Source of the DNA: Parapedobacter koreensis
Lineage (GTDB): Bacteria > Bacteroidota > Bacteroidia > Sphingobacteriales > Sphingobacteriaceae
Reading direction: 5' to 3'
Length of the DNA: 64,000 nucleotides
NCBI RefSeq assembly: GCF_900109365.1
Contig: NZ_FNZR01000001.1
Span: 868,001 to 932,000, forward strand
A model generated the notes under the pieces. It saw nothing but the letters and a program-made list of their open reading frames with translations, did no database searches and was not told where the DNA came from. A program made the translations under genes and the position numbers. Of the stretch, positions 23,658-42,894 are shown piece after piece. Position 1 is the stretch's first letter; each line of letters opens with the position of its first letter.

Positions 23658-24695
23658 TTAATTTGCAGAAACAGCTACCTTGCCGATAACAGCCTCAGCA
23701 AACCGCTCCATCTCCTCCAGCTGCGGACTGCACTGCAAAAGAAAGAAATCCACGCCCACCCGCTCAAATTCGGCAATCCTGTCCTGCACTTGAGCAGGAG
23801 TGCCAACGAGTCCGCTCCGTAGTCCCCGATTGGACACTGCATAATCCTGTAAAGACAATTGTTGCTCCAATTGTGTACCGGCCAGCCATTGCTGGTAATT
23901 TTTATAGCCGGGATTTCCTTCTTTGATGATCGTAATACGTTCCAATTCCCGCTTGACTTCCTGTTCAGTGGGCCGTACAATGCTGTATGCCGCAACGCCA
24001 AATTGTAATGGGGGTAACCCCTTTTTATCACGTCTTTCACGCATGTCGGCAATACGTTTGCCGATGATCTCAGGCGAGTCGCCATGCATGACGTAGCCAT
24101 CGCACAGCGATGAAATCATATCTTTAGCCGCTTCGGATTCACCTCCAGCGTAGATAGGGGGGCGCGGCGCAGAAAGTGGCTTGGGCTGCAGCACATTGTC
24201 ATTTACCTGATAGTAATTGCCCGTAAAGCTATAATGGTCGCTTTTCCACACATTGTCCAATACCTCCAGCCATTCCGTAGACCGTGCATAACGGTTGTCA
24301 TGCTCTTCGAAATGCACCCCGTATTTTTCAGCCTCATCCTTCCACCAGGATGATACCAAGTTTAACGATATTCGCCCGCTACTGATGTGATCGATGTTAG
24401 CCGCCTGTTTGGCCAACAAAGCAGGGTTGTGGAATGTCGGCCGTACCGCCACCATGATTTCCTGTTTGTCGGTTACGGCAGCAAGGGCAGCGGCTGTTGA
24501 CCAGGCATCCAACGATGGGGCCTCCTCTCCTTTGATGTCATTTAGGTTCAATTCGGCTACCAATGTCAAATCAAAGCCAATCGCTTCCGCGCGTAATGCC
24601 AACCGTTTAGCATACGCCCAAGTAGCTTGCATGCCTTCATCTTCCACATTCCGCAGCCAACCACCAAAAACCGGCAACCAATACCCGTATCTCAT
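23658..24695 (-). CDS. Luciferase-like flavin monooxygenase, SfnG/SsuD type
   Basis: 345 residues of the class C flavin-dependent (LLM) family. GRISLNLVSSWWKDEAEKYG, the HDNRYARSTEWLEVL block and YSFTGNYYQVND resemble the FMNH2-dependent dimethylsulfone monooxygenase SfnG and alkanesulfonate monooxygenase SsuD, which split C-S bonds to free sulfite or sulfinate. Pyrimidine oxygenase RutA is a more distant alternative. Its start overlaps the stop of the upstream ATP-grasp gene by ATGA, so the two are translationally coupled. No flavin reductase gene is nearby. Neighbouring SAM- and cysteine-linked leaders support sulfur scavenging. Confidence 0.85.
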   Translation of the reverse strand: MRYGYWLPVFGGWLRNVEDEGMQATWAYAKRLALRAEAIGFDLTLVAELNLNDIKGEEAPSLDAWSTAAALAAVTDKQEIMVAVRPTFHNPALLAKQAANIDHISSGRISLNLVSSWWKDEAEKYGVHFEEHDNRYARSTEWLEVLDNVWKSDHYSFTGNYYQVNDNVLQPKPLSAPRPPIYAGGESEAAKDMISSLCDGYVMHGDSPEIIGKRIADMRERRDKKGLPPLQFGVAAYSIVRPTEQEVKRELERITIIKEGNPGYKNYQQWLAGTQLEQQLSLQDYAVSNRGLRSGLVGTPAQVQDRIAEFERVGVDFFLLQCSPQLEEMERFAEAVIGKVAVSAN

Positions 24696-25654
24696 TGCAC
24701 TAACGCTCCTTCCATGCAGCGCTCAATAAAATCGACCAATTTCTGATGCGGGTCAAAACCAATGACGTTCACGGCATCAGCAACAAAGTTGGATAACGCA
24801 TTCACGTCATAGTAAAGAATTTCCCCATCCCGATCATCAATGATGTACTCAATGCCGCCCACATCGATACCGCTACGCTGTGCGATGGTTTCAATCGTTT
24901 TGATAACGTCATCACTAGGCGTAAATGCCTCTACCTTCAAACCATTTTTTGGGGCATCCAATGCGCATGCGTTACGTACCAGTTCTTGTCCGGCAGTGGT
25001 CTGGCAGATATCAGCGGGGCAGAGGTTGAAGCTCTCCCCGGTGATATAAACCCGTATGGCATACAAATATTTTCCACCAAGCGTTTCCACCCGTGTGATG
25101 TACCCGCCTCGCGCAGGAATAAACTCTTGAACCAATGCGGTATGGTCTACGCCAAAGTCCAGCAGGTTGTTTTCAACGGCATGCCTTACCTCTTCGATGG
25201 TATCGAATTTTTCAATTCCAGCACCACTCCCCCCAATGTTGGCCTTCACAACGATGGGAAAACGTAGCCCTTCCGCTGCTGCTTCAACTTGGGAACTATG
25301 GTTGACCAGTCGCGATTTGGGATACTTGATACCCAATTGTTGCAAAAGCACCAGTTGGAGGGCCTTTGATGTCTCGTAAGTAAAAGCCTGATAACCATTG
25401 ATGACCCTCACACCGTGATTTTCGAGGTGCTTCAAGTAATTTAATGTGTAAAACATCCCCTGCACACCATCACGGAGGTAAGCAGATGGGCTCATACGAT
25501 TGAAAAAGACTTCAAATCCGGGCGAAGGTTCTTCCAACGCAAAATGATGTTGCGTGGGGTTAATGGTTTGATAAGGAATGTTACGTCGTTGTAATTCGGC
25601 AAAGAGTGGTTTAAACCAATCGGGATGCTCATGTGAAATAACTAAAGGGTTCAT
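24692..25654 (-). CDS. ATP-grasp ligase (RimK-like)
   Basis: 320 residues from ATG 25654 (the frame extends 17 codons further, unsupported). A pre-ATP-grasp N-terminal domain, then an ATP-grasp core: FPIVVKANIGGSGAGIEKF (phosphate loop and ATP lysine, about 135-155), ALVQEFIPARGG, and the Mg-binding end GEILYYDVNALSNF. Such enzymes join a carboxylate to an amine or thiol through an acyl phosphate. The substrate is unknown. It is first in a two-gene operon with the flavin monooxygenase (ATGA overlap) and divergent from the Cys-leader/SusCD operon. Confidence 0.82.
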   Translation of the reverse strand: MNPLVISHEHPDWFKPLFAELQRRNIPYQTINPTQHHFALEEPSPGFEVFFNRMSPSAYLRDGVQGMFYTLNYLKHLENHGVRVINGYQAFTYETSKALQLVLLQQLGIKYPKSRLVNHSSQVEAAAEGLRFPIVVKANIGGSGAGIEKFDTIEEVRHAVENNLLDFGVDHTALVQEFIPARGGYITRVETLGGKYLYAIRVYITGESFNLCPADICQTTAGQELVRNACALDAPKNGLKVEAFTPSDDVIKTIETIAQRSGIDVGGIEYIIDDRDGEILYYDVNALSNFVADAVNVIGFDPHQKLVDFIERCMEGALVQ

Positions 25655-25817
25655 ATTTTCTAAATTCTTATTATGCAGTATGGGATATAAGCAAAGGTAC
25701 GACATCCTTTTAACTACTTAAACACTATACTATGTGTATTAAGGATTTTACGTCATTTTTATAACACGTGCAATAGTAAGAATTTAAACAGCTACGTGCA
25801 TTCAATACGCAAAAAAA

Positions 25818-25834
25818 CTACCTACAATAGGCAG
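25818..25834. promoter_or_regulatory. Operator-like palindrome in the ATP-grasp/leader divergent region
   Basis: CTACCTACAATAGGCAG is a 7-bp inverted repeat (six of seven pairs) with a 3-base spacer, centred about 56 bases before the predicted leader transcription start. It shares the half-site CTACCTA with the palindrome at 15729. Confidence 0.4.
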
Positions 25835-25844
25835 CATTTATGGG

Positions 25845-25875
25845 TTTAACGGGAATAAGCAATCGTTTACTTTTG
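25845..25875 (+). promoter_or_regulatory. Promoter of the Cys-leader/SusCD-2 operon
   Basis: TTTA (25845-25848), 19 bases, then TACTTTTG (25868-25875) fits the Bacteroidota TTTG-N19-TAnnTTTG promoter with one mismatch. Transcription would start near 25882, leaving about 63 bases before the leader ORF. A LacI-like CAATCGTTTA overlaps it. Confidence 0.55.
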
Positions 25876-25944: not shown

Positions 25945-26097
25945 ATGAACCAATTCAATTACATTAAATTTTCACTCGCCAAGGATTGTGATATCCTACC
26001 GAGCGAGTTGCCAAAGACATTTACTGCCATACGACACCAATCCCTTACCTACCTACTCTCCATCCCCGCACGAATGTGCATGTGTTGTTGTCACTGA
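25945..26097 (+). CDS. Candidate 50-residue leader ORF ending RMCMCCCH
   Basis: The frame ATG 25945 to TGA 26095-26097 is open for 50 codons in what otherwise looks like an untranslated leader. Its last residues are RMCMCCCH: a Cys, a Met, then three Cys codons in a row just before the stop. The cysteine codons form the left arm of a 7-bp hairpin (26082-26103). This is the design of a cysteine-responsive leader peptide: slow translation at Cys codons when cysteine is short would open the hairpin and favour expression of the SusCD operon starting 100 bases later. Polycysteine leaders are known attenuators in mycobacteria. Starts at TTG 26008 or ATG 26074 would give shorter versions with the same tail. 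Confidence 0.6.
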   Translation: MNQFNYIKFSLAKDCDILPSELPKTFTAIRHQSLTYLLSIPARMCMCCCH

Positions 26098-26103
26098 CAA
26101 CAC
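25974..26103 (+). promoter_or_regulatory. Two leader RNA hairpins around the poly-Cys codons
   Basis: Hairpin 1: ACTCGC (25974-25979) with GCGAGT (26003-26008), enclosing AGGAT (25982-25986) with ATCCT (25993-25997). Hairpin 2: GTGTTGT (26082-26088) with ACAACAC (26097-26103), whose arms contain the cysteine codons and the last base of the leader stop. A T-rich stretch follows from 26115. Either could be part of an attenuator; no unambiguous intrinsic terminator is formed. Confidence 0.5.
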
Positions 26104-26197
26104 GGTTCACCCTACTTTTTATTTTCATCGTATTTGCTTCTGCCTAAAAATAATGACGGAGAGGTAGAAATCATCCATATTCACAAACTTTAATAAA

Positions 26198-29100
26198 ATG
26201 TCAATTAATTTTAGCGAGATACATCGCACGTTTAAAAAGACGTTTTTGCTAACAGCAGGGTTGCTGTTCGGTTCATTGACGCTTATTTATGCGCAAAGCG
26301 CCATCACTGGTACGGTGTTGGATGCCAGTAAAGGAACACCAATCCTCGGAGTTTCCGTAGCACAGGCCGGCACAAATAACGGCGTTGTGACCAATGCTGA
26401 AGGCCAATTTTCCATTAGGATACAGCAGCTTCCCGCGAGGCTGAGGATCTCTTTTGTGGGCTATAAACAACAGGAAGTATACGTTCAAGACGCCTCGAAA
26501 CCTGTAGTGGTCAATCTGAGTGAAGACTTAAGCTACCTGGAAGAAGTGGTCATCACAGGATATACCACCCAGCAACGCAAGAACGTCAGTGGTGCCATTG
26601 CCACGGTATCATTCAGTGAAGCGAATACCCAACAAGCCGACCAAGACCCCCTCAAACTTTTGCAGGGAAAAGCTGCCGGGGTGCAAATTACGTCCACATC
26701 GGGTAACCCAGGCGGGGGCGTTAGTTTTGTGGTACGTGGTAATAACTCCATCGGTGGAAGCGTAAATCCGCTGTACGTCGTGGACGGGGTATTCCTCAAC
26801 ACCAGCTTACCGGTAACGGGCGGTGGCGGAAACCTGTTATCCAACCCGCTGGCCGACATAAACCCAGCTGATATTGAAACCATTACACTATTGAAAGACG
26901 CTAATGCTACAGCCATTTATGGCTCACAAGGTGCCAATGGTGTGGTGGTGATTACTACCAAGCGCGGACAGCGGAATGCTGCTTCGCGCATTAACGTATC
27001 CGCCAAACACGGAGTATCGAATGCTGTCAATAAATTCAAGGCCACTACCGGACCGGAAACGGGCGAACTGCTTAACGAGGCATGGATCAATACCGCGGCC
27101 GAAAATGGGGAAAGTCTGGAAGATTACATTCTCAGGGAAAGACCTACCAATTGGGACATCGTATATCCGTTCACAACGGCTGGCGGTACGCCCGACTTCA
27201 GTCGCGACAACATCGCCAACCTGGCCACCTACGACCGCATCAGTGATCTGTTCCAAACGGCCAGCACTACCGACTATCAGCTGTCCTTGTCTGGCGGAAC
27301 CGCGACCAGCAACCACTACATTGGTCTCGGTTATGCAAATCAGGAATCCATTGTGAAGCCCAACACCTTTCAGCGGTTTTCGGGCCGCGTCAATTATGAC
27401 AACAATGTGACCTCGCGCCTGAAGGTGGGCACGAGCTACAACGTGACGCGCACCGGACGCAGTAACGTACGTAATAGCGACAACGATCCCGGCGGCATCA
27501 TCAACGCGGCTATTTTTCCACGCTCATTTCTGCCCGTTTTCGACGCTAATGGCAATTACCTCAGTCATGCTACCTTCAACAATCACCTCAGATTAATTGA
27601 GCACCTGGACAATAATTATGTGACTTGGCGCAACACGGTCAATCTCTATGGTGAATATGCTTTCCTGCCCGAATTGAAATTCCGTACCAGTGGAAGCTTT
27701 GATTACACCAGCAACGGTTCCCGGAGTTTCGCTGACTTCGCTCTGACCAACAACGGGTCGGCAAGTGCGGAGAACGATCTGATCCAGATTTATACCGCCG
27801 AACAGTTGCTCACCTACGTGAAAAACTTTTCCGAGAAGCACAACGTCAATATCCTCTTGGGGAACACGGTAAACGTACGGCAATTGCAGGGTGTGAATGC
27901 CAATGGGAGCAACTATATATTTGATTCGTTACGGGAAGTGTCGTCTGGCGGTACCACATCCGGGGGATCTGAAAGGAACGAAAACCGCCTGGTTTCCTTC
28001 TTTGGCAGCGGCGGGTATACGTATGACGACAGGTATTCCGTTGAGTTCAATTTCCGGGCCGACGGATCGTCCCGCTTTGGCAAAAACGTACGTTGGGGTT
28101 ACTTCCCCGCTGGCGGTTTCATCTGGAACGCCGGGCAAGAAACGTTCATACAGGACCTGCAGGTATTTGATGCGTTGAAACTACGTGCCACGTATGGTTA
28201 CTCGGGCAACCAGAATGGCATTGGCAACTACGACGCCCTGGCTATCTGGTCTACCAGCGCACAGTCTTATTTGGATCAGCCCAGCCTTTCCCCGGGCAGA
28301 CTCGCCAATCCGGACCTGACGTGGGAGACTACCCGGCAAACGAATGTTGGCTTGGATGTTGGTTTGCTGAGAAACAGGTTGAATGTGACCGTTGACGTGT
28401 ACGAGAAATATACCACCAAGGGCCTTCAGGACGTGACGGTGCCTTCTCGCAGCGGATACAGTACCGCCGTACGCAACTACAGCGAAATCAGCAACAGAGG
28501 AGTAGAATTGACCATTCAGTCCATCAATCTACAAACGCAGGATTTCCGCTGGACCACCGATTTCAACATATCCGCCAACCGCAATAAGATAGAGCGAATC
28601 CCGCAGGAGCAGACGATGGGTGCAAGCAACCGAGGCACTTCCATCCTGCGGGAAGGTTATCCCGTTAATTCCTTTTTCCTCTACAAGCAACTGTATGTGG
28701 ATCCGCAAACGGGGAATGCGGTGTATGAGGATGTAGACGGAAACGGTATAATCACCTACGCCGACCGACAAATCGTAGGTAATGCCCAACCCAATTTTAC
28801 GGGTGGACTCACAAACACGGCAACCTATAAAGGCTTTGAGCTGTATGTGTTCTTCTACTTCACCCAGGGAAATCAAATCATGAACATGCACGACTTCTTC
28901 TTGGTACATGGCGGCACGCAAAACGGCATCGGTTTCACCTCCCGCCAACTTGACCGCTGGCGCCAACCGGGCGACGTCACTGACATCCCCAAGATGACCA
29001 AGTACACGTTGAATCCGGAGCAGAACAATTCGCCTGCAAACAATTATACGGGCCAAGTGGCCAGCATCAGTAGCCGTTACCTGGACGATGGCTCGTTCCT

Positions 29101-29335
29101 GCGGCTGCGAAATGTGGCCCTGAATTACACATTGCCCCAAGCGTTCACCTCGCGGCTGGGTCTCAACCGCATAAAGGCTACGTTTTCGGCAACCAACCTG
29201 TGGACGTGGACAAATTACAAAGGGCTCGATCCCGAAGTAAGTGCGCAAAGCACAAACCAGAACACAGCGGGATATGATTGGGCTACGGTACCCCAGCCCC
29301 GTACTTATGAATTTATATTAAATCTCACCTTATAA
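26198..29335 (+). CDS. SusC/RagA-type TonB-dependent outer-membrane transporter 2
   Basis: 1045 residues. Signal peptide (FLLTAGLLFGSLTLIYAQ), carboxypeptidase-regulatory-like domain (about 35-115), plug with EEVVITGYTTQQRKNVSGAI, PLYVVDGVF and LLKDANATAIYGSQGANGVVVITTK, and a barrel ending ILNLTL. It differs from SusC-1 through most of the barrel, so the cargo is probably different. Preceded by the poly-Cys leader and followed by its SusD and two secreted M14 peptidases, it may import sulfur-containing peptides or their products (inference). Confidence 0.95.
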   Translation: MSINFSEIHRTFKKTFLLTAGLLFGSLTLIYAQSAITGTVLDASKGTPILGVSVAQAGTNNGVVTNAEGQFSIRIQQLPARLRISFVGYKQQEVYVQDASKPVVVNLSEDLSYLEEVVITGYTTQQRKNVSGAIATVSFSEANTQQADQDPLKLLQGKAAGVQITSTSGNPGGGVSFVVRGNNSIGGSVNPLYVVDGVFLNTSLPVTGGGGNLLSNPLADINPADIETITLLKDANATAIYGSQGANGVVVITTKRGQRNAASRINVSAKHGVSNAVNKFKATTGPETGELLNEAWINTAAENGESLEDYILRERPTNWDIVYPFTTAGGTPDFSRDNIANLATYDRISDLFQTASTTDYQLSLSGGTATSNHYIGLGYANQESIVKPNTFQRFSGRVNYDNNVTSRLKVGTSYNVTRTGRSNVRNSDNDPGGIINAAIFPRSFLPVFDANGNYLSHATFNNHLRLIEHLDNNYVTWRNTVNLYGEYAFLPELKFRTSGSFDYTSNGSRSFADFALTNNGSASAENDLIQIYTAEQLLTYVKNFSEKHNVNILLGNTVNVRQLQGVNANGSNYIFDSLREVSSGGTTSGGSERNENRLVSFFGSGGYTYDDRYSVEFNFRADGSSRFGKNVRWGYFPAGGFIWNAGQETFIQDLQVFDALKLRATYGYSGNQNGIGNYDALAIWSTSAQSYLDQPSLSPGRLANPDLTWETTRQTNVGLDVGLLRNRLNVTVDVYEKYTTKGLQDVTVPSRSGYSTAVRNYSEISNRGVELTIQSINLQTQDFRWTTDFNISANRNKIERIPQEQTMGASNRGTSILREGYPVNSFFLYKQLYVDPQTGNAVYEDVDGNGIITYADRQIVGNAQPNFTGGLTNTATYKGFELYVFFYFTQGNQIMNMHDFFLVHGGTQNGIGFTSRQLDRWRQPGDVTDIPKMTKYTLNPEQNNSPANNYTGQVASISSRYLDDGSFLRLRNVALNYTLPQAFTSRLGLNRIKATFSATNLWTWTNYKGLDPEVSAQSTNQNTAGYDWATVPQPRTYEFILNLTL

Positions 29336-29348
29336 ATAGGATAGATCG

Positions 29349-30719
29349 ATGAAAACCACTTTGAATCAATACATCATACGCGCCCTGTTTGTCCTATCCG
29401 TCATCGGATTTGGTGCCTGTGAGTCATTTTTGGATTTGAAACCCACGAATTCGTTATTAGCAGACAACGCCGTTTATGATGCTAAAACATCCCGCGCGTT
29501 GGTGAATGCTGCTTATTCCAGGTTAAAAAGCTATACGATAAGTCCTGCCATTATCCTGGCAGTCATCCCAGCCGATAATGTGTTTTTTGGAGGCAGCCTG
29601 AGCCAATATTTAGAACTGGATAACAACGCCTTTACGGTCACCAATTCGGCCATCGTGGATGCATACCGATCCAACTATTCACTAATTAATACGACCAACT
29701 GGGCAATTTCAGAAATACCAAAAGTGACGGACGAGTCCTTTGCTGCCGGCGAACAGAATAAGCTGGTGGGAGAAGCGCATTTTATCCGCGCCTTTGCCTA
29801 TTTCAGCCTCGGGCGGAGCTGGGGGGGCGTCCAGTTGCAGCTGAACCCCACTACTGATCTGAGTTCGCTCGGCAATATCCCCCGCAGTACACAGGCGGAG
29901 ACTTATGCCCAGGTGCTGGCCGACCTGAATACTGCCGAACAGTTGCTGCCTGACGACGACAACACCACGCGCAATCTTGTGCAACGCGCTATCGTGCGCG
30001 CCTTCCGTGCCAAGGTATACCTCTATACCCAACAGTTTGATCAAGCGGAAACCGAAGCCACAGCGGTCATCAATAACCCGAAGTATGAATTGGTGAAGCC
30101 TTACAATGCTTTTTTCCAGGCACCATTCCTGACCAAAGAATCCGTCTTCGAGATTTCAGCAACCACCAACAATTCGGGTACTTCCGGAAGTCCATGGTTC
30201 CTGGCATCGGGAACGCCCCGTGGCTCCTATGAGTACCGTCCCACCAACGAAATCATCACCTTGCTGAATGATCCAGCGAAAGGCGGCGGCAGAAATGCGC
30301 TTATAGCTACCCGTGGCAGCGACACCTACGGGAATCTGTATCATACGACCTCACCTAATATCAATCCGGCCTACGTAATTCGCATTGCCGATCTGTACTT
30401 AATACGTGCTGAAGCGCGGGTGAGGAAAGCAACGCCAGATTATGCCGGTGCCATTGCCGACCTCAACGCAGTGCGCAGCCGTGCAGATGCCGAGTTGTTC
30501 CCCACAGGCAATATCGATAGGGCCGCCATCCTACAAGCCATATGGGATGAACGGCGACTGGAATTTGCCTTCGAAGCTGACCGTTGGTACGACCTCGTGC
30601 GTACCGAACAGGCCGAGACCGAACTGGGTGTTAGTAGAAATTTCTGGCTGTTCCCGATCCCACAGGCAGACGTGCTTGCTGACCCGGACCTTGGCGGAGA
30701 AAATAACCCTGGCTATTAA
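29349..30719 (+). CDS. SusD/RagB-type lipoprotein 2
   Basis: 456 residues. Lipobox GFGAC (Cys about 24) and the SusD TPR-type helices (GEAHFIRAFAYFSLGRSWGG), with the C-terminal WDERRLEFAFEADRWYDLVR motif. It is the partner of the SusC ending 13 bases upstream. It is 44 residues shorter than SusD-1. Confidence 0.93.
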   Translation: MKTTLNQYIIRALFVLSVIGFGACESFLDLKPTNSLLADNAVYDAKTSRALVNAAYSRLKSYTISPAIILAVIPADNVFFGGSLSQYLELDNNAFTVTNSAIVDAYRSNYSLINTTNWAISEIPKVTDESFAAGEQNKLVGEAHFIRAFAYFSLGRSWGGVQLQLNPTTDLSSLGNIPRSTQAETYAQVLADLNTAEQLLPDDDNTTRNLVQRAIVRAFRAKVYLYTQQFDQAETEATAVINNPKYELVKPYNAFFQAPFLTKESVFEISATTNNSGTSGSPWFLASGTPRGSYEYRPTNEIITLLNDPAKGGGRNALIATRGSDTYGNLYHTTSPNINPAYVIRIADLYLIRAEARVRKATPDYAGAIADLNAVRSRADAELFPTGNIDRAAILQAIWDERRLEFAFEADRWYDLVRTEQAETELGVSRNFWLFPIPQADVLADPDLGGENNPGY

Positions 30720-30772: not shown

Positions 30773-33346
30773 ATGAAAAGAAGTATCGTTCTTTTTTTTG
30801 TGTCACTGCTCGCAGTGGCACACGTCCATGCGCAGGACGAGTATTACTTTGGCGGTCGCGGATCGCTGAATCCCGACATTCCAACGCCCGAATCATTTTT
30901 TGGTTTCCGCATCGGTACCGCATTGGTACGCTACGACAAAGTGGTGGAGTATTTCAAGTTGCTTGCTGACAAGTCAGACAGGGCTTCCTTGCAAGTATTT
31001 GGCAAATCATGGGAAGATCGCGAACAGGTGAAATTGTTTGTTACTTCGCCGGACAACCAGCGCAACCTGGAAAATATCCGTCAGGAGCATATTAAACTGG
31101 CAGATCCGAGTGCGTCAGTAGCTACCAGCGGTCAAAAAGTCATCGTCGAACTTGCCTACAACGTGCATGGTGGTGAGATAGCAGGCACCGATGCTTCCGT
31201 GCTCGTGGCTTATTACTTGGTGGCTTCCGAAGACCCCGATATCGTCCGCCGTCTGAACGACGCCGTCGTATTGATTGAACCTTCTCAGAATCCCGATGGA
31301 CGGGAACGGGCAGCCAACTACATCAACGGTTTCCACTCTTGGCCCCCTATCGCTGACCCTGCCGATGTAGAACACGGAAGCGGCGTGACCCCCCATCGGG
31401 GCAATCACTTTTGGAACGATCTCAATCGAGACTGGCTTGCCCTCGCACAGATTGAGAGCCGAAACCGAGTTGCTTTCTACCACAAATGGTATCCCAATGT
31501 CTATTTGGACTTCCATGAAATGGGAAGCAGTAGTACGTATTATTTCGAACCTTCGCCACTCACCACATGGAACAAAATCCTTCCGAAAAGCAATTATGAA
31601 GTACTGAACGCTATTTTAGCGAAGCATTTCTCGGCATCCCTTAACAGCATCGGGTCGTTGTATTATACCAAGGAAAGTTTCACCAACCTATCGCCCATCT
31701 ATGGTTCTACCTATCCCGATTATCAAGGGGGCGTGGGCACCACGTTAGAGGTGGGGTCTACTTCTGGTGTGGTGATTGAAACCGCCGCCGGATTGCGCCC
31801 CTTTTCCAAAAACTTAAGAGATAATTTTCTTATCAGCATCGCAGCTGTACGTGCTGCTACCGATGAAAAAGACACGTTTCTGAAACATCAGCAGGAGTTC
31901 TTCAAAAGTGCACTGACACAGGCCGATAAGCTTGCTACTAAATACATCGTGTTTGGCAGCAAAACGGATAAAAGCTTGAACAACCTCTTCTTGGAACATC
32001 TGCTTCAGCACCACATCGATGTATACGAACTGACGGCTTCATTTTCGCAGGATGACAAGACCTTTGAGGCCGGTAGCGCCTATGTGGTACCGCTCCGCCA
32101 GCCGCAGTTCCGCGTGCTACAATCCATCTTTGAGGAAAACGAGACCAACGGCTTTTCAGATACGACGACCTTCTACGATATTTCGGCATGGAGCACGGTT
32201 CACGGTTATGGCATACCCTTCGTCAAGGTGAAAACGGCTGTGAAAGAAGGCCCTCAGCTAACACAGGTACCCGCCGTAGCCGGATCGGTCACCGCCCGTT
32301 CCGAACTGGCGTATGCGTTTGATTATTTCGATTACCTCACTCCAAAAGCACTCTACTATTTGCAGGATCACGGGGTGAAAGCCCGCGTGGCGCAACGTCC
32401 TTTCACCAGCAAAACGAGTGTAGGCGACAAAAGCTTCGTTGCCGGCTCGATCGTCATCCCTGTGGCCTACCAAAGCCTTTCGTCAGACGAGTTGTACACG
32501 TTATTGAACGAAGCTGCCAAGCTGGCGAATGTCACCGTGTATGCAATCAGCGATGGATTCAGCGTGGCTGGCATAGACCTCGGAAGCAATAACATCCGCG
32601 TATTGAAGAAGCCCGCTGTGGCAGCCATTACTGGCGGCAACTGGACGAGCATAGGCGAACTGTGGGCATTGCTTGGCAATACCCACCATATTCCATTGGT
32701 CAAAATTACACCCCAATCTGCCGAACGTGTAGATTTATCTAACTACACATCGATTATCCTAAGCGGAGGGCAATTGTCACCTGAATTGAGCAGGCGGCTT
32801 ACCGATTGGGTGGAGAATGGCGGAACACTGATCGCATTGAGTGGAGCCGCTCAGTGGGCTTCTTCGTTGGCCACCCCTGCTCCCGCCGGAGGTGGGCGCG
32901 GCAATCAGCGGGGTACATCAACTGCTGACACGACGGATGCCGCGGCTTCCACTACCGCTCAACGCGGGCGTGGAGGATTGGGTGGCAACGGCGGCTCTCG
33001 GCTCAATGGCATCATTGTCCACGCGGAATTGAACCTATCGCATCCACTGGCCTACGGATTTACGTCCAAAGACTTTTATACGCTAAAAAACAGCACCTCG
33101 GGCTTGCGTCAAACGGGCTCCAGCAACGTGGTGCTAAAAACTACTACAGGCGAATTAGTCAATGGATACGCTACTCCCGAAGCATTATCGGAATTAACGG
33201 ATAACGTGGTGATAGCTTCAGCAACCCGTGGACGAGGTTCTATCGTGATCTTTGGCGAATCGCCCACATTCCGTGGCTATTGGCTTGCTCCGGGCAGGAT
33301 ATTGACCAATGCGATATTCTTCGGTGGCGGAAGCGGTAATAGATAA
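30773..33346 (+). CDS. Secreted M14 zinc carboxypeptidase, copy 1
   Basis: 857 residues. Signal peptide (IVLFFVSLLAVAHVHAQ), then an M14 peptidase domain with zinc ligands His132 and Glu135 (NVHGGE) and His248 (DFHEMG) and a candidate catalytic Glu326 (TTLEVGS). The C-terminal half, from about residue 600, looks like a class I glutamine-amidotransferase-like domain (VAAITGGNWTSIGELWALL), usual in these 850-residue Bacteroidota forms, with a Gly/Arg/Ala-rich loop near 705-745. It would trim peptides outside the inner membrane, fitting the adjacent SusCD. Confidence 0.88.
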   Translation: MKRSIVLFFVSLLAVAHVHAQDEYYFGGRGSLNPDIPTPESFFGFRIGTALVRYDKVVEYFKLLADKSDRASLQVFGKSWEDREQVKLFVTSPDNQRNLENIRQEHIKLADPSASVATSGQKVIVELAYNVHGGEIAGTDASVLVAYYLVASEDPDIVRRLNDAVVLIEPSQNPDGRERAANYINGFHSWPPIADPADVEHGSGVTPHRGNHFWNDLNRDWLALAQIESRNRVAFYHKWYPNVYLDFHEMGSSSTYYFEPSPLTTWNKILPKSNYEVLNAILAKHFSASLNSIGSLYYTKESFTNLSPIYGSTYPDYQGGVGTTLEVGSTSGVVIETAAGLRPFSKNLRDNFLISIAAVRAATDEKDTFLKHQQEFFKSALTQADKLATKYIVFGSKTDKSLNNLFLEHLLQHHIDVYELTASFSQDDKTFEAGSAYVVPLRQPQFRVLQSIFEENETNGFSDTTTFYDISAWSTVHGYGIPFVKVKTAVKEGPQLTQVPAVAGSVTARSELAYAFDYFDYLTPKALYYLQDHGVKARVAQRPFTSKTSVGDKSFVAGSIVIPVAYQSLSSDELYTLLNEAAKLANVTVYAISDGFSVAGIDLGSNNIRVLKKPAVAAITGGNWTSIGELWALLGNTHHIPLVKITPQSAERVDLSNYTSIILSGGQLSPELSRRLTDWVENGGTLIALSGAAQWASSLATPAPAGGGRGNQRGTSTADTTDAAASTTAQRGRGGLGGNGGSRLNGIIVHAELNLSHPLAYGFTSKDFYTLKNSTSGLRQTGSSNVVLKTTTGELVNGYATPEALSELTDNVVIASATRGRGSIVIFGESPTFRGYWLAPGRILTNAIFFGGGSGNR

Positions 33347-33383: not shown

Positions 33384-35960
33384 ATGAAGCATCTAAAAAC
33401 CATACTATTACAGCTACTCATCATTAGTTTTGCAGCCACGGATGTGGTTGCCCAAAACACCTACTATTTTCCGAAGGCCCAGTTTGACCCTTCCATTCCT
33501 TCCCCCGAGACATTCTTGGGCTATCCCATTGGTTCGCATTATACACGCCACGACCGAATAATCGCCTATTTCCAGGAGCTCGATCGCCTGTCGGATAAAA
33601 TTAGCGTCAACATCATCGGCCAATCTTACGAGGGACGTCCATTGGCGGTTGCGACGATTACGTCTGCCGCCAACCACGGACGTTTGGAAGAAATCCGACA
33701 GGAACACATTAGACAGGTAGATCCCCAAGCACCGCAGCTCGACGCAAGTACATCACCCGTCGTCGTGTTGCTTGATTACAGCGTACATGGCGCTGAAACC
33801 TCCAGTGGCGAGGCTTCTTTGCTTACCGCCTACTACTTGGTTGCCAGCCAAGACCAAGAAGCCCAGAAATGGCTTGACGAAGCCGTGATACTTATTGATA
33901 TTGCCCAAAATCCAGATGGGCGCGACCGCACGGCCAATTGGCACAATGCTTATAAATCTACGCCCCCGGTAGCCGACCCCCTGGATAAGGAACACTTGGA
34001 GCAATTCCCCGGTGGCCGAACAAATCACTATTTTACCGATTTGAACCGCGACTGGCTTAGCATCACCCAAATTGAAACCCAGCCGAAAATCGACTTCTTC
34101 CATCAGTGGTATCCCAATGTGCATATCGATTTTCATGAAATGGGTGGTGGAAGCACATACTACTTCGAGCCCACGCCGAAAAGCTCTGAAAGCCCACTGA
34201 TTCCGAAATCTTCCTATGACTTTAATACCGTGCTGGCTAAATACCATGTTGAAGCGCTAGATGGCATAGGCTCCCTTTACTTTACCAAGGAAGTCTTTGA
34301 CAATTTCTCTCCGATTTATGGTTCTACCTATCCTGATTTCCATGGTGCCGTAGGCGCAACGTTTGAACAGGGCAGTTCGCGTGGCTTGTTGCAGGAAACC
34401 GCAAATGGATTGTTAGAATTTCGGTTTACCGTGCGGAATCAACTACTTACCGGGCTGGCTACCGTCAAAGGCGCAATAGCCGAAAAAGCCGGATTATTCA
34501 ACTTGCAAAAGGATTTCTTCCGCACAGCGTTGGATGAAGCCCGGGCACATAAAACCAAATCGTATATATTTGGTGATGAGCATGACGAATCCCTTACACA
34601 GAAGCTGGTAGACCTACTTTTGCGTCACCGTATTACGGTATTTGAGCTTGGCAGCGACCAAACCATCGATGGCAAGTCATTCAAGCAGGGTTCGGCATAT
34701 GTCGTTCCTGCTGTGCAACCTCAATTCCGTCTGGTGCATTCGATCTTTGAAGAAACACCGCCGATACAGGATAGCGTTTTTTATGGAAGCACCTCTTATT
34801 CCATCATCCACGCGTATGGATTGAAATATGCCAAATCGGCAAGTGCTGTTAGCCCCGGGAATCGTGTCAGCAACGTCAAAACAATACCAGGGGCGGTCGT
34901 TGGTGATAAGTCCAATTACGCCTACCTGCTGGGTTGGACAGAGTATACTGCTCCCAGGGCACTCTATGCACTGCTGGAAAAAGGCGTCTTTGTCAAAGCG
35001 GCCTTCAAACCGTTTACGTCATCCACGGCAGAGGGCCCTATAAGCTTTGGATACGGCTCGTTGGTCATTCCAGTGGCCGGGCAGACCTTTAACGGCGATT
35101 CCTTATATCGTGCCATCACGGCAGTCGCCAGCGAAGCCGGGCTGAAGTTTTACAGCGTTTCTACAGGGTTCAATGTAGAAGGGATTGACTTGGGAAGCAA
35201 CAATATACAAACGCTTCAAAAACCTCATGTCGCGCTGGTACTTGGTCAGGGCATCAATTCGGCGCAAGCTGGCCAGGTGTGGTACCTGCTTAATGAGCAC
35301 CTCAAATTACCTGTGGTAAAAATCGACCCGACAAACATTCCCAGGGCTAACCTCAGCAAGTATACGACCTTGATCCTTACGGGCGGCTCCTATAACGGCT
35401 TATGGGACAAGGAGACGACCGAACGCATCAAATCATGGGTCAATAACGGCGGCACGCTTATCGCATTCCAAACCGCAGCCGAATGGGCCATTGCCAATGG
35501 TATTGTACGCGAGAAAGTGTACCGGGATACTACTCGCGGACGGGATCCACAGACCGGAAGATTGGACTATGCAACGCGATCAGAAGCCACCGCACCAGAC
35601 CGATTAAGCGGCAATATCTTTTCAGCCGACATCGACATTACGCACCCTGTAGCGTTTGGTCTCCAAAAGCGTAAGCTATTTGTCAATATTGACGGCAGCA
35701 CCATCCTATTGCCCAGTGCCGACAGATTTTCAACGGTGGCACAATTTGACAGCGAACCTTGGGTAAATGGGTACATTTCCAAGCAGATTTTGGATCCCTT
35801 CCGGGATAAAGCCTACATTTTGGCATCTTCCGCTGGCCAGGGAAGCGTCGTCCTTTTTTCAGACGACCCTACCTACCGAAAGTACTGGTATGGTACCGAC
35901 CGTTTGTTGATTAATAGTATCTTCTTCGGAAATCACATTTCAAGTGGGGGACGGAGATAA
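33384..35960 (+). CDS. Secreted M14 zinc carboxypeptidase, copy 2
   Basis: 858 residues, colinear with copy 1 and 37 bases after it, so a tandem duplication that has diverged. Signal peptide (TILLQLLIISFAATDVVAQ). Zinc ligands His135 and Glu138 (SVHGAE) and His251 (DFHEMG), with FEQGS at the catalytic Glu position. The same C-terminal amidotransferase-like domain is present (VALVLGQGINSAQAGQVWYLL). Loss of the Gly/Arg loop of copy 1 and a changed HGAE motif suggest different specificity. Its stop codon lies inside a 27-bp perfect inverted repeat. Confidence 0.88.
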   Translation: MKHLKTILLQLLIISFAATDVVAQNTYYFPKAQFDPSIPSPETFLGYPIGSHYTRHDRIIAYFQELDRLSDKISVNIIGQSYEGRPLAVATITSAANHGRLEEIRQEHIRQVDPQAPQLDASTSPVVVLLDYSVHGAETSSGEASLLTAYYLVASQDQEAQKWLDEAVILIDIAQNPDGRDRTANWHNAYKSTPPVADPLDKEHLEQFPGGRTNHYFTDLNRDWLSITQIETQPKIDFFHQWYPNVHIDFHEMGGGSTYYFEPTPKSSESPLIPKSSYDFNTVLAKYHVEALDGIGSLYFTKEVFDNFSPIYGSTYPDFHGAVGATFEQGSSRGLLQETANGLLEFRFTVRNQLLTGLATVKGAIAEKAGLFNLQKDFFRTALDEARAHKTKSYIFGDEHDESLTQKLVDLLLRHRITVFELGSDQTIDGKSFKQGSAYVVPAVQPQFRLVHSIFEETPPIQDSVFYGSTSYSIIHAYGLKYAKSASAVSPGNRVSNVKTIPGAVVGDKSNYAYLLGWTEYTAPRALYALLEKGVFVKAAFKPFTSSTAEGPISFGYGSLVIPVAGQTFNGDSLYRAITAVASEAGLKFYSVSTGFNVEGIDLGSNNIQTLQKPHVALVLGQGINSAQAGQVWYLLNEHLKLPVVKIDPTNIPRANLSKYTTLILTGGSYNGLWDKETTERIKSWVNNGGTLIAFQTAAEWAIANGIVREKVYRDTTRGRDPQTGRLDYATRSEATAPDRLSGNIFSADIDITHPVAFGLQKRKLFVNIDGSTILLPSADRFSTVAQFDSEPWVNGYISKQILDPFRDKAYILASSAGQGSVVLFSDDPTYRKYWYGTDRLLINSIFFGNHISSGGRR

Positions 35961-40217: not shown

Positions 40218-42764
40218 TCAAAACGCGTACCGTAAGGTGACGCCATATGTTCTCGGGTCGCCCAATACCCCGGCATAATGACCGGCATTACCGGCTCCGG
40301 GCAATAACTGCTCAAAATAATTGGTATCAAATAGGTTGCGTGCCCAAAGGAACAGCGTCACCCCCTCAGTCGCTCTAAAGCCAATGCGTGCATTCAACAA
40401 GGTATAGGCATCTACCACCAAATACCTTGACGGCGACGGATTTGACGAAAATGACGATCGGTAAAACCCGTCGACTCCTAAAAAGAATTGGCCGTCTTGC
40501 CCCAGAAAAGCGCTCGTTGCCGTAGCGGCTTCGCCGCCCAGTGATGCCGCCCATTTAGAAATGCCGGGAAGTTCACCGCCCGAAATATCCTTGAATGTCG
40601 GCCCACCCGTTTCTTCCAGTGGCGGCGGAGCATTAGTAAACGATACATATTTCCCATCTGTATAAGCAAGCGCCCCATATATCGAAATGTAGTTATTGAA
40701 CCGGACACTTCCATCAAATTCGACACCCCTTACCCGTACCTTTTCAGCGTTAGCCAGGTAGCCCCGGTTTACAGCCAGGTCTGCCGTCTGCACCTGTGCT
40801 TGGTAGTCACGGACATCGGTATTGTATACAACGATGTTCAGCGAAGTATTTGCCGTCGGCTGGGCTTTCACGCCAATTTCATAGTGGTTGACGCTTTCCG
40901 GTTTAATTACTGCCAGCTCCAGCATCGGCTGGCCATTCGCGTTCGGCAAACCTCCCAAATTAAGGCCAACGGGCTTAAAACCATTGGCAAATGTCGCGAA
41001 CGCATTGATATGGTCAGCAGCTTTAAAAGCCACCGTAAGCTGCCCTGAAACGTTGGTATCATCAATGTCAGCCTCAAACGCCTGATCGCTATATACAGCA
41101 CGCTTGATGGCCAGCAGATCAGGATCATCGGTCTGCAAACCACCGTAGGTTTCCCGCCTAAAATTCACAGACTTATCGTCATAATTCACCCGAATACCCG
41201 GAAGAATACGTAAGCGTGGGGTGATAGCATAGTCCACTTGGGCAAAGATAGCGCCACTGAAGGTTTTTAAACTGGGGTAGCTTTTGATACCATAGCCATC
41301 CAACAAACCGGGAGTCTGCCAAAGCGGACTTTCCGTATTTTGTGAAAACCGCCACTGATCCCTTCCCGCCTCTTCGGTATGTGCTGGATCAGCATCCAAT
41401 GTTTGCCCAAAAGCATATAAGCCGACGACGGCACTCAGCCGATCAGAAAATTCACCTGCCCACCGGACTTCCTGCGACCACTGATCGTGACGCGAAGGAG
41501 CCTGCGATAAGGCGAGGCCTTGCAAGCCTGTAAAATCCCGGTCATTGGATGGATCCCAATTCCAAAATCGCCATGCTGTAGTGGAAGTGAGTGTACCCGG
41601 CCCAACCTTCACATCCACATTGGCAGAAACCCCGCCCAAATCCTGCCCGGATCGCCACGGCGTATCGTGATCAATCACCCGATCAAAGGGATTCCGGCTG
41701 GGCAGTTCGTAGCCTAAATCGGCTATAATCTGCTCAAATTGCTGATAAGGAGCCCGCAATGTAGGTGCAACACCGGCAAATACCTGTGCATAGCCGTCAG
41801 GTCGTTGGCGGCTTATATCGCCAGCGAACAAAATATGTAAATTTTCAGACGGGGCATAGAGCAACTGACCCCGGAATCCAAGGTTATTCAGATCATTTAC
41901 CGGCTTCTGCGTGGCCACATTATCGAGTATTCCGTCCCGCTGGGTACCGCTAAACGAAACCCGTGCAGCAAGGGTTTTACCCAATGGTCCGCTTACCGAT
42001 GCTTTTGCCTGGATAAAGCCATAATTCCCATAACTCAACTCCACATGCGCTTCGGGGGTGAATGTGGGTCTGCGTGTAGTCACATTAAATGCTCCTGCCA
42101 CGGTATTCTTGCCAAATAACGTACCCTGCGGACCACGCAATACTTCTATTTGCTCCACATCAATAAAGTCGAGCGTGGTGGCCGCGGTACGCGCATAATA
42201 CACCCCATCTACATAAAACCCCACGCCGGGATCAATTCCATCATTGGTAAGACCAAACGTGGTGCCTAACCCCCGGATGCTCAAGCCTGTATTACGCGGA
42301 TTGGATGAATATAATTGAACCGAGGGCACCAATTCTTTCAACCGATTGACATTGAATGCCCCAGCGTCGTCTGCGAGGGTTCCACTAATGACCGATACTG
42401 GTATGGGGACCTCCTGCAGCAATTCCCTACGGCGTCGAGAGGTCACCACAATCTCCGACAGCAGGTTGTCTGCCATAAGGGTGATTCGCAAGGGTTCTGT
42501 TGGCCATTCGTTGATGCGTATTTCTCTTGATTTATATCCGACCGAATTGATTTGCAATGAAAATGGAGGGGCTTCCTGTATAGCAAGATTAAATTGGCCG
42601 TCATCAGCTGCCACCGTGTAAGCATTGGTACCCTTGACTACCAACGTCGCATGTGGCACAGGTGCTCCTGAAGCGTTTTTCACGGTACCTACCAAGGTTT
42701 GCTGGCCAGAAGCGATATTTACCCAAAGAAGAATGATTAGGCTTTGTACGATAAATCTATCCAT
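40218..42764 (-). CDS. TonB-dependent outer-membrane receptor (not SusC type)
   Basis: 848 residues. Signal peptide (FIVQSLIILLWVNIASGQ), carboxypeptidase-regulatory-like domain (about 22-100), TonB box/plug region (LSEIVVTSRRRRELLQEVPIPVSVI; EVLRGPQGTLFGKNTVAGAFNVTTRRP), and a barrel ending LRYAF. Length and plug resemble siderophore or oligosaccharide receptors rather than SusC, and no SusD is beside it. It follows the MurNAc symporter by 130 bases on the same strand and could take up muropeptides or disaccharides, but iron chelates are equally possible. Confidence 0.88.
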   Translation of the reverse strand: MDRFIVQSLIILLWVNIASGQQTLVGTVKNASGAPVPHATLVVKGTNAYTVAADDGQFNLAIQEAPPFSLQINSVGYKSREIRINEWPTEPLRITLMADNLLSEIVVTSRRRRELLQEVPIPVSVISGTLADDAGAFNVNRLKELVPSVQLYSSNPRNTGLSIRGLGTTFGLTNDGIDPGVGFYVDGVYYARTAATTLDFIDVEQIEVLRGPQGTLFGKNTVAGAFNVTTRRPTFTPEAHVELSYGNYGFIQAKASVSGPLGKTLAARVSFSGTQRDGILDNVATQKPVNDLNNLGFRGQLLYAPSENLHILFAGDISRQRPDGYAQVFAGVAPTLRAPYQQFEQIIADLGYELPSRNPFDRVIDHDTPWRSGQDLGGVSANVDVKVGPGTLTSTTAWRFWNWDPSNDRDFTGLQGLALSQAPSRHDQWSQEVRWAGEFSDRLSAVVGLYAFGQTLDADPAHTEEAGRDQWRFSQNTESPLWQTPGLLDGYGIKSYPSLKTFSGAIFAQVDYAITPRLRILPGIRVNYDDKSVNFRRETYGGLQTDDPDLLAIKRAVYSDQAFEADIDDTNVSGQLTVAFKAADHINAFATFANGFKPVGLNLGGLPNANGQPMLELAVIKPESVNHYEIGVKAQPTANTSLNIVVYNTDVRDYQAQVQTADLAVNRGYLANAEKVRVRGVEFDGSVRFNNYISIYGALAYTDGKYVSFTNAPPPLEETGGPTFKDISGGELPGISKWAASLGGEAATATSAFLGQDGQFFLGVDGFYRSSFSSNPSPSRYLVVDAYTLLNARIGFRATEGVTLFLWARNLFDTNYFEQLLPGAGNAGHYAGVLGDPRTYGVTLRYAF

Positions 42765-42782: not shown

Positions 42783-42790
42783 CAAATCTA
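42783..42790 (-). promoter_or_regulatory. -7 box upstream of the TonB receptor
   Basis: On the minus strand TAGATTTG matches TAnnTTTG, 19 bases before the start codon. Upstream (42823-42849) the plus strand carries the direct repeat ATTTTATGC twice, 11 bases apart. No -33 element is obvious. Confidence 0.35.
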
Positions 42791-42894
42791 TACCAAATCA
42801 GTAGACTTTAATAGGTACAAATCATGCGTATTTTATGCACATTTTATGCTTAGTGGGCAGTTATTGCTATAAAAAATCAATTTGTCCAAGCTTA

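Follow-up and report, generated by a model that had tools for sequence, protein, structure and literature searches.

What is the role of a short open reading frame (ORF) that ends in a run of cysteine codons just before a SusCD operon? The question is raised by one locus of the window, by which we mean the whole stretch of 64,000 nucleotides that was analysed. It was originally predicted that the frame senses a shortage of cysteine and thereby switches on the operon. As described below, this cysteine-sensing idea is supported by the comparison with relatives, and we hold it to be probable, with good confidence, that the ORF encodes a leader peptide through which a SusCD operon for sulfur acquisition senses cysteine.

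Results

The leader ORF and its neighbourhood

The features of the locus that are needed first are as follows.

25945-26097, plus strand: leader ORF of 50 codons with the tail RMCMCCCH, a tail type that recurs upstream of homologs of SusC and of O-acetylhomoserine sulfhydrylase (OAHS)
26077-26091, plus strand: tail cysteine codons C-M-C-C-C (TGC ATG TGT TGT TGT), read in the sequence
26198-29335, plus strand: susC, TonB-linked outer membrane protein (TIGR04056, 793.7 bits, above cut-off)
29349-30719, plus strand: susD (Pfam SusD_RagB and SusD-like_3)
30773-33346, plus strand: M14 zinc carboxypeptidase-like gene (PF00246)
33384-35960, plus strand: second M14 zinc carboxypeptidase-like gene (PF00246)
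24692-25705, minus strand: divergent ATP-grasp (RimK-like) gene (PF08443)
23658-24695, minus strand: luciferase-like monooxygenase gene, nearest SfnG/SsuD (TIGR04021, 246.8 bits, with a cut-off of 382.95)

The predicted 50-codon frame is present in the sequence as claimed: it reads MNQFNYIKFSLAKDCDILPSELPKTFTAIRHQSLTYLLSIPARMCMCCCH in the window, from the ATG at 25945 to the TGA at 26095-26097, with the C-terminal end R-M-C-M-C-C-C-H-stop and with the tail cysteine codons at positions 26077, 26083, 26086 and 26089. The susC ATG, predicted to lie 100 bases past the leader, is indeed found at 26198, the gap from the leader stop being 100 nt.

It is noted that the neighbourhood points to sulfur, judging from a SAM riboswitch and the SfnG/SsuD-like monooxygenase. 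The best models for the latter are those for monooxygenases of dimethylsulfone and alkanesulfonate, with scores under the curated cut-offs. The SAM riboswitch (RF00162, 15927-16034, 74.8 bits) stands before SusCD operon 1 of the window, which encodes an M20 peptidase, a thioredoxin-like protein, SusC and SusD and is probably under SAM control. This riboswitch is the sole match in the window to the Rfam covariance models at the gathering score, with no match at the leader.

The simplest alternative is that a random frame happens to end in cysteine codons and is functionless. At this locus alone there is something to be said for it, with a 50-codon frame being unremarkable and the single-locus statistics being weak (z of −1.95 for the hairpin described below); by shuffling, some 2% of upstream regions of this kind (0.66 of 30) are expected to hold a tail with at least three cysteines in the last eight residues. 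The locus is taken to be more than chance because relatives were compared, while the single locus by itself is weak evidence.

Cysteine-tailed leaders before SusC homologs

SusC homologs were searched for in 151 genomes of the family, giving 56 places at E ≤ 1e-150, of which 30 (L039-L068, the window included) were examined. In the strict test, an ORF of 8-90 codons was required to end at most 450 nt before the susC ATG and to have at least three cysteines in its last eight residues, and the control consisted of the 30 best-scoring of the 56 other SusCs in the window's own genome. The test was passed at 15 of the 30 homologs and at 0 of the 30 control SusCs, and in 50 rounds of shuffling of the homologs' upstream regions a mean of 0.66 and a maximum of 3 of 30 passed, where the loci, here and in the comparisons below, are related and the leader counts are hence not independent. 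The tails include RMCMCC, RMCMCMC, GSCCC, HCCC, MCCCN, RCCCCCCA and others, while the bodies are variable. The original prediction proposed to look upstream of susC in Sphingobacteriaceae for frames whose body varies but whose cysteine tail is conserved, and such frames do exist, at those 15 homologs. Many of the 15 failing homologs have frames that end in one or two cysteines near the stop, e.g., RMRMCC, RMCC, TCRCW, FRC and MMC, by a reading made post hoc and partly by eye, and at L056 and L061 nothing resembling a cysteine-ended leader was seen before susC.

Beyond the family, a search of 395 genomes gave seven SusC loci (L119-L125), with cysteine-run ORFs at L123, L124 and L121, the one at L121 lying about 600 nt from susC, beyond the limit of the strict test. 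By eye, the leader of the Sphingobacterium psychroaquaticum SusC homolog ends in RMRMCC and that of the Dyadobacter luteus homolog (74% SusC identity) in a single cysteine.

The operons at the SusC loci with leaders, sorted by eye from the N-termini of their proteins, fall into two types. The first (the window and L069-L072) has SusC, SusD and an M14 peptidase; at L071 and L072 the ATP-grasp and monooxygenase genes are seen by eye behind the M14 gene, with ATP-grasp on the same strand. In the second (L073-L082), redox and membrane genes come after SusC and SusD. By eye, six of the ten type-two loci (L073, L074, L075, L078, L079 and L080) were seen to have a SoxC-like sulfite dehydrogenase and nine of the ten, L074 excepted, a YeiH-like exporter. 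Models were run on one of these ten loci, L078, giving a SoxC match of 461 bits (cut-off 420), a cytochrome c match and a YeiH match of 82 bits, below the cut-off of 232.6, with two further L078 proteins having no model match. The type-two SusCD operons thus point to organosulfur compounds or sulfite.

At two SusC loci a tRNA-Cys gene was observed near the leader, with 29 of the 30 SusC loci scanned: in genome G281 (L066/L081) it lies between the poly-cysteine leader and susC, and in G013 (L063) about 600 nt upstream of the poly-cysteine leader. There are one further tRNA-Cys match in G281 and two in G013, and the window's own genome has one in total.

Cysteine-tailed leaders before OAHS and other genes

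The OAHS survey was seeded by one pattern match (L017), with the identity of the query given by TIGR01326 (668 bits, above cut-off). The set of 40 family loci comprises 39 of the 73 places found (30 with loci and nine of the window's own genus) and the one of G054, and the strict test was applied within 350 nt. It was passed at 33 of the 40 loci, compared with a mean of 0.4 and a maximum of 2 in 50 rounds of shuffling; in the residue control the next most frequent residue, leucine, reached 10 of 40. In the 33 leaders cysteine makes up 54% of the last eight residues and 0.6% of the body.

Of the 25 OAHS loci scanned, leader-positive and leader-negative alike, 23 have a SAM riboswitch upstream, and at the two loci that have none, L156 and L166, the leader is missing too. 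The OAHS locus of the window's own genome (L174) has both the SAM riboswitch and a leader ending in RMCCGMRHMCC. For other families, 5 of 24 OAHS loci pass (L186, L188, L190, L192 and L196). A separate observation is that the OAHS leaders of family f25 at L200, L203 and L204 are rich in methionine and cysteine (MMCWSMMMPMHH by eye, CMMCMCM) and are followed by clear intrinsic terminators.

Directly upstream of PAPS reductase a cysteine-tailed leader was found at only 1 of 29 loci (L217), and in the window's own genome the operon with PAPS reductase starts further upstream, at sulfite reductase. The L217 leader, from G803, ends in seven cysteines 36 nt before the presumed PAPS reductase start.

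Two pattern scans broaden the sample. The pattern C-x-CCC-H-stop occurs at 59 places in 400 genomes, compared with 12 for the backward control. Many of these places are copies of one site, TGTTGATGTTGCTGCCATTGA, which is not an open frame, and the 36 of the 59 that were read include three leaders (the window, L017/L038 and L035). In the untargeted scan for CCCCC-stop, covering 251 family genomes, 30 places were fetched among the matches listed, and leader-like cases were taken to have a start codon, no overlying frame of more than 110 codons and a gene downstream, criteria set while reading the output. Nine of the 30 are leader-like, standing before OAHS (5), a MetX-like gene (1) and TonB receptors (3), with the genes named by eye; of the five OAHS loci, at least two (G292 and G269) also belong to the 40-locus set. 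One of the TonB-receptor loci adjoins an aminotransferase and a PhyH-like gene, and at the two others, L279 and L280, no neighbour was recognised as a sulfur gene. From these comparisons of sequences, the window leader appears as one of a leader family that stands mostly before sulfur genes and is not peculiar to SusCD.

With the leaders at hand, a second alternative can be weighed, in which the peptide itself is the product, i.e., a RiPP precursor or a metal-binding cysteine peptide, perhaps modified by the ATP-grasp enzyme. Cysteine-rich ends occur in RiPP cores, and the distance between the ORF and the start of the RimK-like ATP-grasp gene is 240 nt. Against this, no ATP-grasp gene was recognised by eye in the stretches fetched at the leader SusC loci L069, L070 and L073-L082; moreover, the leaders also precede OAHS behind SAM riboswitches, and their bodies vary freely. 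Neither the conserved recognition part nor the constant modification enzyme that mark a RiPP or graspetide precursor was recognised across the leader loci viewed, and we consider a role of the peptide as product very unlikely.

The cysteine codons appear to be maintained as codons

If the recurrence concerned the letters rather than the codons, the TGY repeat would be an RNA element or a protein-binding element, with the reading frame being incidental. A string common to some tails, CGAATGTG (the window, L047 and L182), is what such an element would offer. The frame evidence argues against it. When no ORF is required, a TGY cluster is found at 36 of the 40 OAHS loci, and in the 19 codons upstream of it only the cysteine frame is open, with 1 stop compared with 25 and 37 in the other frames; a stop follows the last cysteine immediately in 26 of the 36 clusters, and TGT and TGC alternate in the 33 OAHS tails (80 and 69, respectively). 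At the SusC loci (19 of 30) the corresponding stops are 2 in the TGY-cluster frame versus 13 and 8. Furthermore, in eight OAHS leaders of one genus, aligned at the stop without gaps, the differences summed over pairs are 45 synonymous versus 51 other in the last seven codons and 23 synonymous versus 291 other in codons 22 to 11 before the stop, the latter figure being inflated by misalignment because the OAHS leaders differ in length. Selection thus appears to act on the cysteine codons rather than on the letters, and an element with an incidental frame seems highly improbable.

The same evidence bears on the chance explanation: the cysteine-tailed frames before SusC and OAHS far exceed those in shuffles and in the SusC control, and the frame is open, which largely refutes it and leaves it hardly credible.

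A further alternative accepts a translated leader and supposes that the signal goes beyond the charging of tRNA-Cys alone, with either nascent-chain arrest by another sulfur ligand or joint sensing of methionine and cysteine. It has in its favour that methionine is enriched in the 33 OAHS tails (15.5% of the last eight residues versus 1.9% of the body) and that the OAHS leaders follow SAM riboswitches. By contrast, the number and spacing of the cysteines vary freely, which fits codon sensing and not a defined arrest motif, and some tails have no methionine near the cysteine run, e.g., RFICCCCC and TSQCCCC. We therefore regard such a signal as rather unlikely and retain tRNA-Cys charging as the preferred reading.

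The sulfite-reductase leader of the same genome

The sulfite-reductase operon of the window's own genome (L281) begins with a leader ending in MKQTNKLMAPCYMAHR, a frame with one cysteine and of 25 residues when read from an earlier ATG. It is followed by an antiterminator, GGCTGTT...AACAGCC, whose second arm overlaps the first arm of a terminator, CCTCC...GGAGG-TTTTTTT. This layout, the standard attenuator design, suggests that sulfur genes are attenuated through cysteine codons in this lineage.

Fifteen sulfite-reductase regions were fetched, with the start not located in five of them (L290 and L292-L295). In six of the nine genus members (L281-L289) the leader contains cysteine (CYM, CNCM, CCM three times, and PC); the leader at L283 is without cysteine, and at L285 and L289 no sulfite-reductase leader was recognised. 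The terminator is found in seven of the nine members, with a clear antiterminator in five of those seven. In addition, L291, of another genus, has a sulfite-reductase leader with MCNCCM and a terminator.

RNA structure between leader and susC

Two structural features of the window are considered here.

26082-26103, plus strand: hairpin in which cysteine codons pair with the stop region and the bases past it (arms 26082-26089 and 26096-26103)
26049-26167, plus strand: possible switch, speculative, in which GGAGAGGTAG (26158-26167) pairs either with 26049-26061 (in the leader) or with 26112-26120

The original prediction also held that the cysteine codons make up one arm of a hairpin that reaches the stop codon. 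Such a hairpin exists in the window, with GTGTTGTT (26082-26089) pairing with GACAACAC (26096-26103) and including two stop-codon bases, and its stability is modest (10 of 200 shuffles equally good, z of −1.95); as a general feature, however, it finds no support, with pairing at or below that of shuffled controls. Over the leader sets (18 SusC and 33 OAHS leaders) pairing of the cysteine codons is not above shuffles. A cysteine-codon hairpin as the general switch was rejected on these numbers: the mean pairing of the last 15 nt of the tail with the downstream RNA is 0.359 versus 0.362 shuffled for the 18 SusC leaders and 0.349 versus 0.393 shuffled for the 33 OAHS leaders.

In the minimum-energy folds of sub-stretches, from single-sequence folding, the two alternative partners of GGAGAGGTAG are mutually exclusive, and the distance of GGAGAGGTAG from the susC ATG, 31-40 nt upstream, is not that of a Shine-Dalgarno sequence. 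No Shine-Dalgarno sequence is evident before susC. Between susC and a point 60 nt ahead of the leader stop, the window RNA is more structured than its shuffled versions (z of −3.0). The mean z values are −1.76 for the 18 SusC leaders, −2.23 for the 33 OAHS leaders and −1.16 for the 30 controls, a modest difference. A consensus fold of eight OAHS leaders has 8 pairs, none with a two-sided change.

Neither the pattern tool nor our own scan found an intrinsic terminator between the window leader and susC. Scanning 52 leaders gave weak candidates at five (L063, L038, L145, L152 and L163), the one at L063 sitting inside the leader. At the SusC locus L045 a terminator after the leader was seen by eye (GCATCA/TGATGC, then TTTTT), which the scan missed because it required four G-C pairs. 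Over the 60 nt that follow the leader stop, C is more frequent than G in 13 of 18 SusC leaders and 31 of 33 OAHS leaders; ahead of the control susC genes, two stretches gave 18 and 13 of 30. This is at most suggestive of a Rho-type C-rich stretch after the leader stop.

Hairpins also occur immediately ahead of susC. Those of the second operon type have 20 pairs with 8 two-sided changes in five sequences and 8 pairs with 1 two-sided change in the other eight. Several of them look like minus-strand terminators, which occur at 9 of 30 loci of the leader set and 11 of 30 control SusCs. Because they are equally common in controls, these hairpins are not taken as parts of the leader and are probably the ends of antisense RNAs. 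Strong minus-strand terminators were observed before susC at L047, L051, L053, L055, L058, L059, L062, L066 and L068, and a hairpin containing CAATTGGCGTTG upstream of susC is common to some loci.

Promoter and palindrome

Two elements lie upstream of the leader.

25845-25875, plus strand: promoter-like TTTA-N19-TACTTTTG, read in the sequence
25818-25834, no strand assigned: palindrome CTACCTACAATAGGCAG, a candidate transcription-factor operator upstream of the promoter, of putative function

A promoter had been predicted about 70 bases upstream of the leader, and a promoter-like element is present there, with TTTA at 25845-25848 and TACTTTTG at 25868-25875, the leader ATG following 69 nt past its end. 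Apart from an imperfect −33 box, the element is similar to the Bacteroidota promoter type, TTTG-N19-TAnnTTTG.

The palindrome was searched for in the forms TCTAY..RTAGA, CTACCTA..TAGGYAG or TCTATAGA, picked after viewing the sequences. Palindromes of these three related forms are present upstream of SusC at 17 of 30 loci of the leader set versus 0 of 30 controls, and a looser form at 20 of 30 versus 1 of 30. The window palindrome is a single copy in its own genome at up to one mismatch, and the pattern tool reports a minus-strand terminator-like site (25835-25817) at the same place. Elsewhere the palindrome occurs before the PhyH leader (L035), before 1 of 40 OAHS genes and before 3 of 25 PAPS-reductase genes. 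Our guess is that it is bound by a sulfur regulator. A palindrome TCTATACCAAATCAGTAGA was also observed at 42787-42805 of the window, immediately ahead of a gene for a TonB receptor (40218-42764, minus strand), and no cysteine-run leader was seen at that site.

Discussion

The recurrence of cysteine-tailed leaders before sulfur-acquisition genes of relatives probably reflects the sensing of cysteine shortage, turning on sulfur scavenging. Based on this reading, when charged tRNA-Cys is short, a ribosome translating the leader would slow at the terminal cysteine codons, and the stalled ribosome would alter the fate of the leader RNA by refolding and/or by shielding it from premature termination, which would allow expression of susC and the downstream genes. 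With ample cysteine, the ribosome would reach the stop and depart, and the operon would remain low. Leader translation, stalling and the direction of control are all what we infer from sequence comparison, and at susC we regard the sensing step as likely.

The poly-cysteine leader family would span Sphingobacteriaceae and some other Bacteroidota, in settings that appear to differ by gene: a palindromic operator at many SusC loci and one PhyH locus, a SAM riboswitch at OAHS, and an antiterminator and terminator at sulfite reductase. A wider and tentative proposal, to which we give slightly less than even credence, is that of a cysteine-limitation regulon of Bacteroidota built on a portable poly-cysteine module, where the cysteine codons abut the stop and no intrinsic terminator is used. 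What counts would be the dwell time of the ribosome at the leader end, perhaps in competition with Rho or with a refolding of the RNA. Such a module would be joined to a SAM riboswitch on OAHS (with SAM and cysteine as inputs) and to a palindromic operator on SusCD/TonB uptake operons, and in two species it has an extra tRNA-Cys gene nearby.

Comparison with known systems

The nearest known systems are the polycysteine short ORFs of mycobacteria, which Canestrari et al. in 2020 reportedly described as leaderless and, by the title of that work, as cysteine-responsive. Their cysteine codons are presumed to be the sensor, and the ORFs stand before cysteine and sulfur genes (PMC13236596, PMC9094748), with translation attenuation described for M. 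smegmatis (PMC13236596). The window leader is like them in being a poly-cysteine-encoding short ORF upstream of an operon. Unlike the mycobacterial ORFs, it is probably not leaderless, since its ATG lies 69 nt past the promoter-like element; it also differs in belonging to Bacteroidota, in having SusCD/TonB and OAHS as the targets, frequently accompanied by a SAM riboswitch or a palindrome, and in the lack of an evident Shine-Dalgarno sequence for susC.

The leaders of trp and his are ribosome-mediated amino-acid attenuators. Another is ilvB1 (PMC13236596). As in the classical attenuators, the regulatory codons here lie in a short leader, and L281 has the layout of mutually exclusive antiterminator and terminator; taken broadly, the leader ORF has one of the defining traits of amino-acid leader-peptide attenuators, being a short ORF rich in the codons of the residue presumably sensed, before related metabolic genes. 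Unlike in the classical cases, the susC and OAHS leaders carry their cysteine codons at the very end of the ORF, with weak terminator candidates at 5 of 52, and no mutually exclusive pair of antiterminator and intrinsic terminator was found between the window leader and susC. Within Bacteroidota, leader peptides before amino-acid operons are described for Flavobacterium psychrophilum in a section on attenuation that names no cysteine leader (PMC9723704). At the level of titles and abstract openings in the open-access literature, which leaves most subscription papers outside, no report of a cysteine leader in Bacteroidota was found.

SusCD systems are usually regarded as glycan importers under substrate control. 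If the reading of the window leader as cysteine-sensing is true, a set of SusCD systems would serve sulfur supply, and the cysteine-tailed leader would be a sequence mark for finding such sulfur SusCDs. Finally, the SAM-I riboswitch controls sulfur amino-acid genes. RF00162 is found upstream of OAHS and of SusCD operon 1 of the window, with none at the window leader, and the OAHS layout differs from SAM-I alone in that the cysteine leader lies between riboswitch and gene, a two-input arrangement; if the reading is true, the tandem of SAM riboswitch and cysteine leader on OAHS would constitute a natural two-input sulfur gate.
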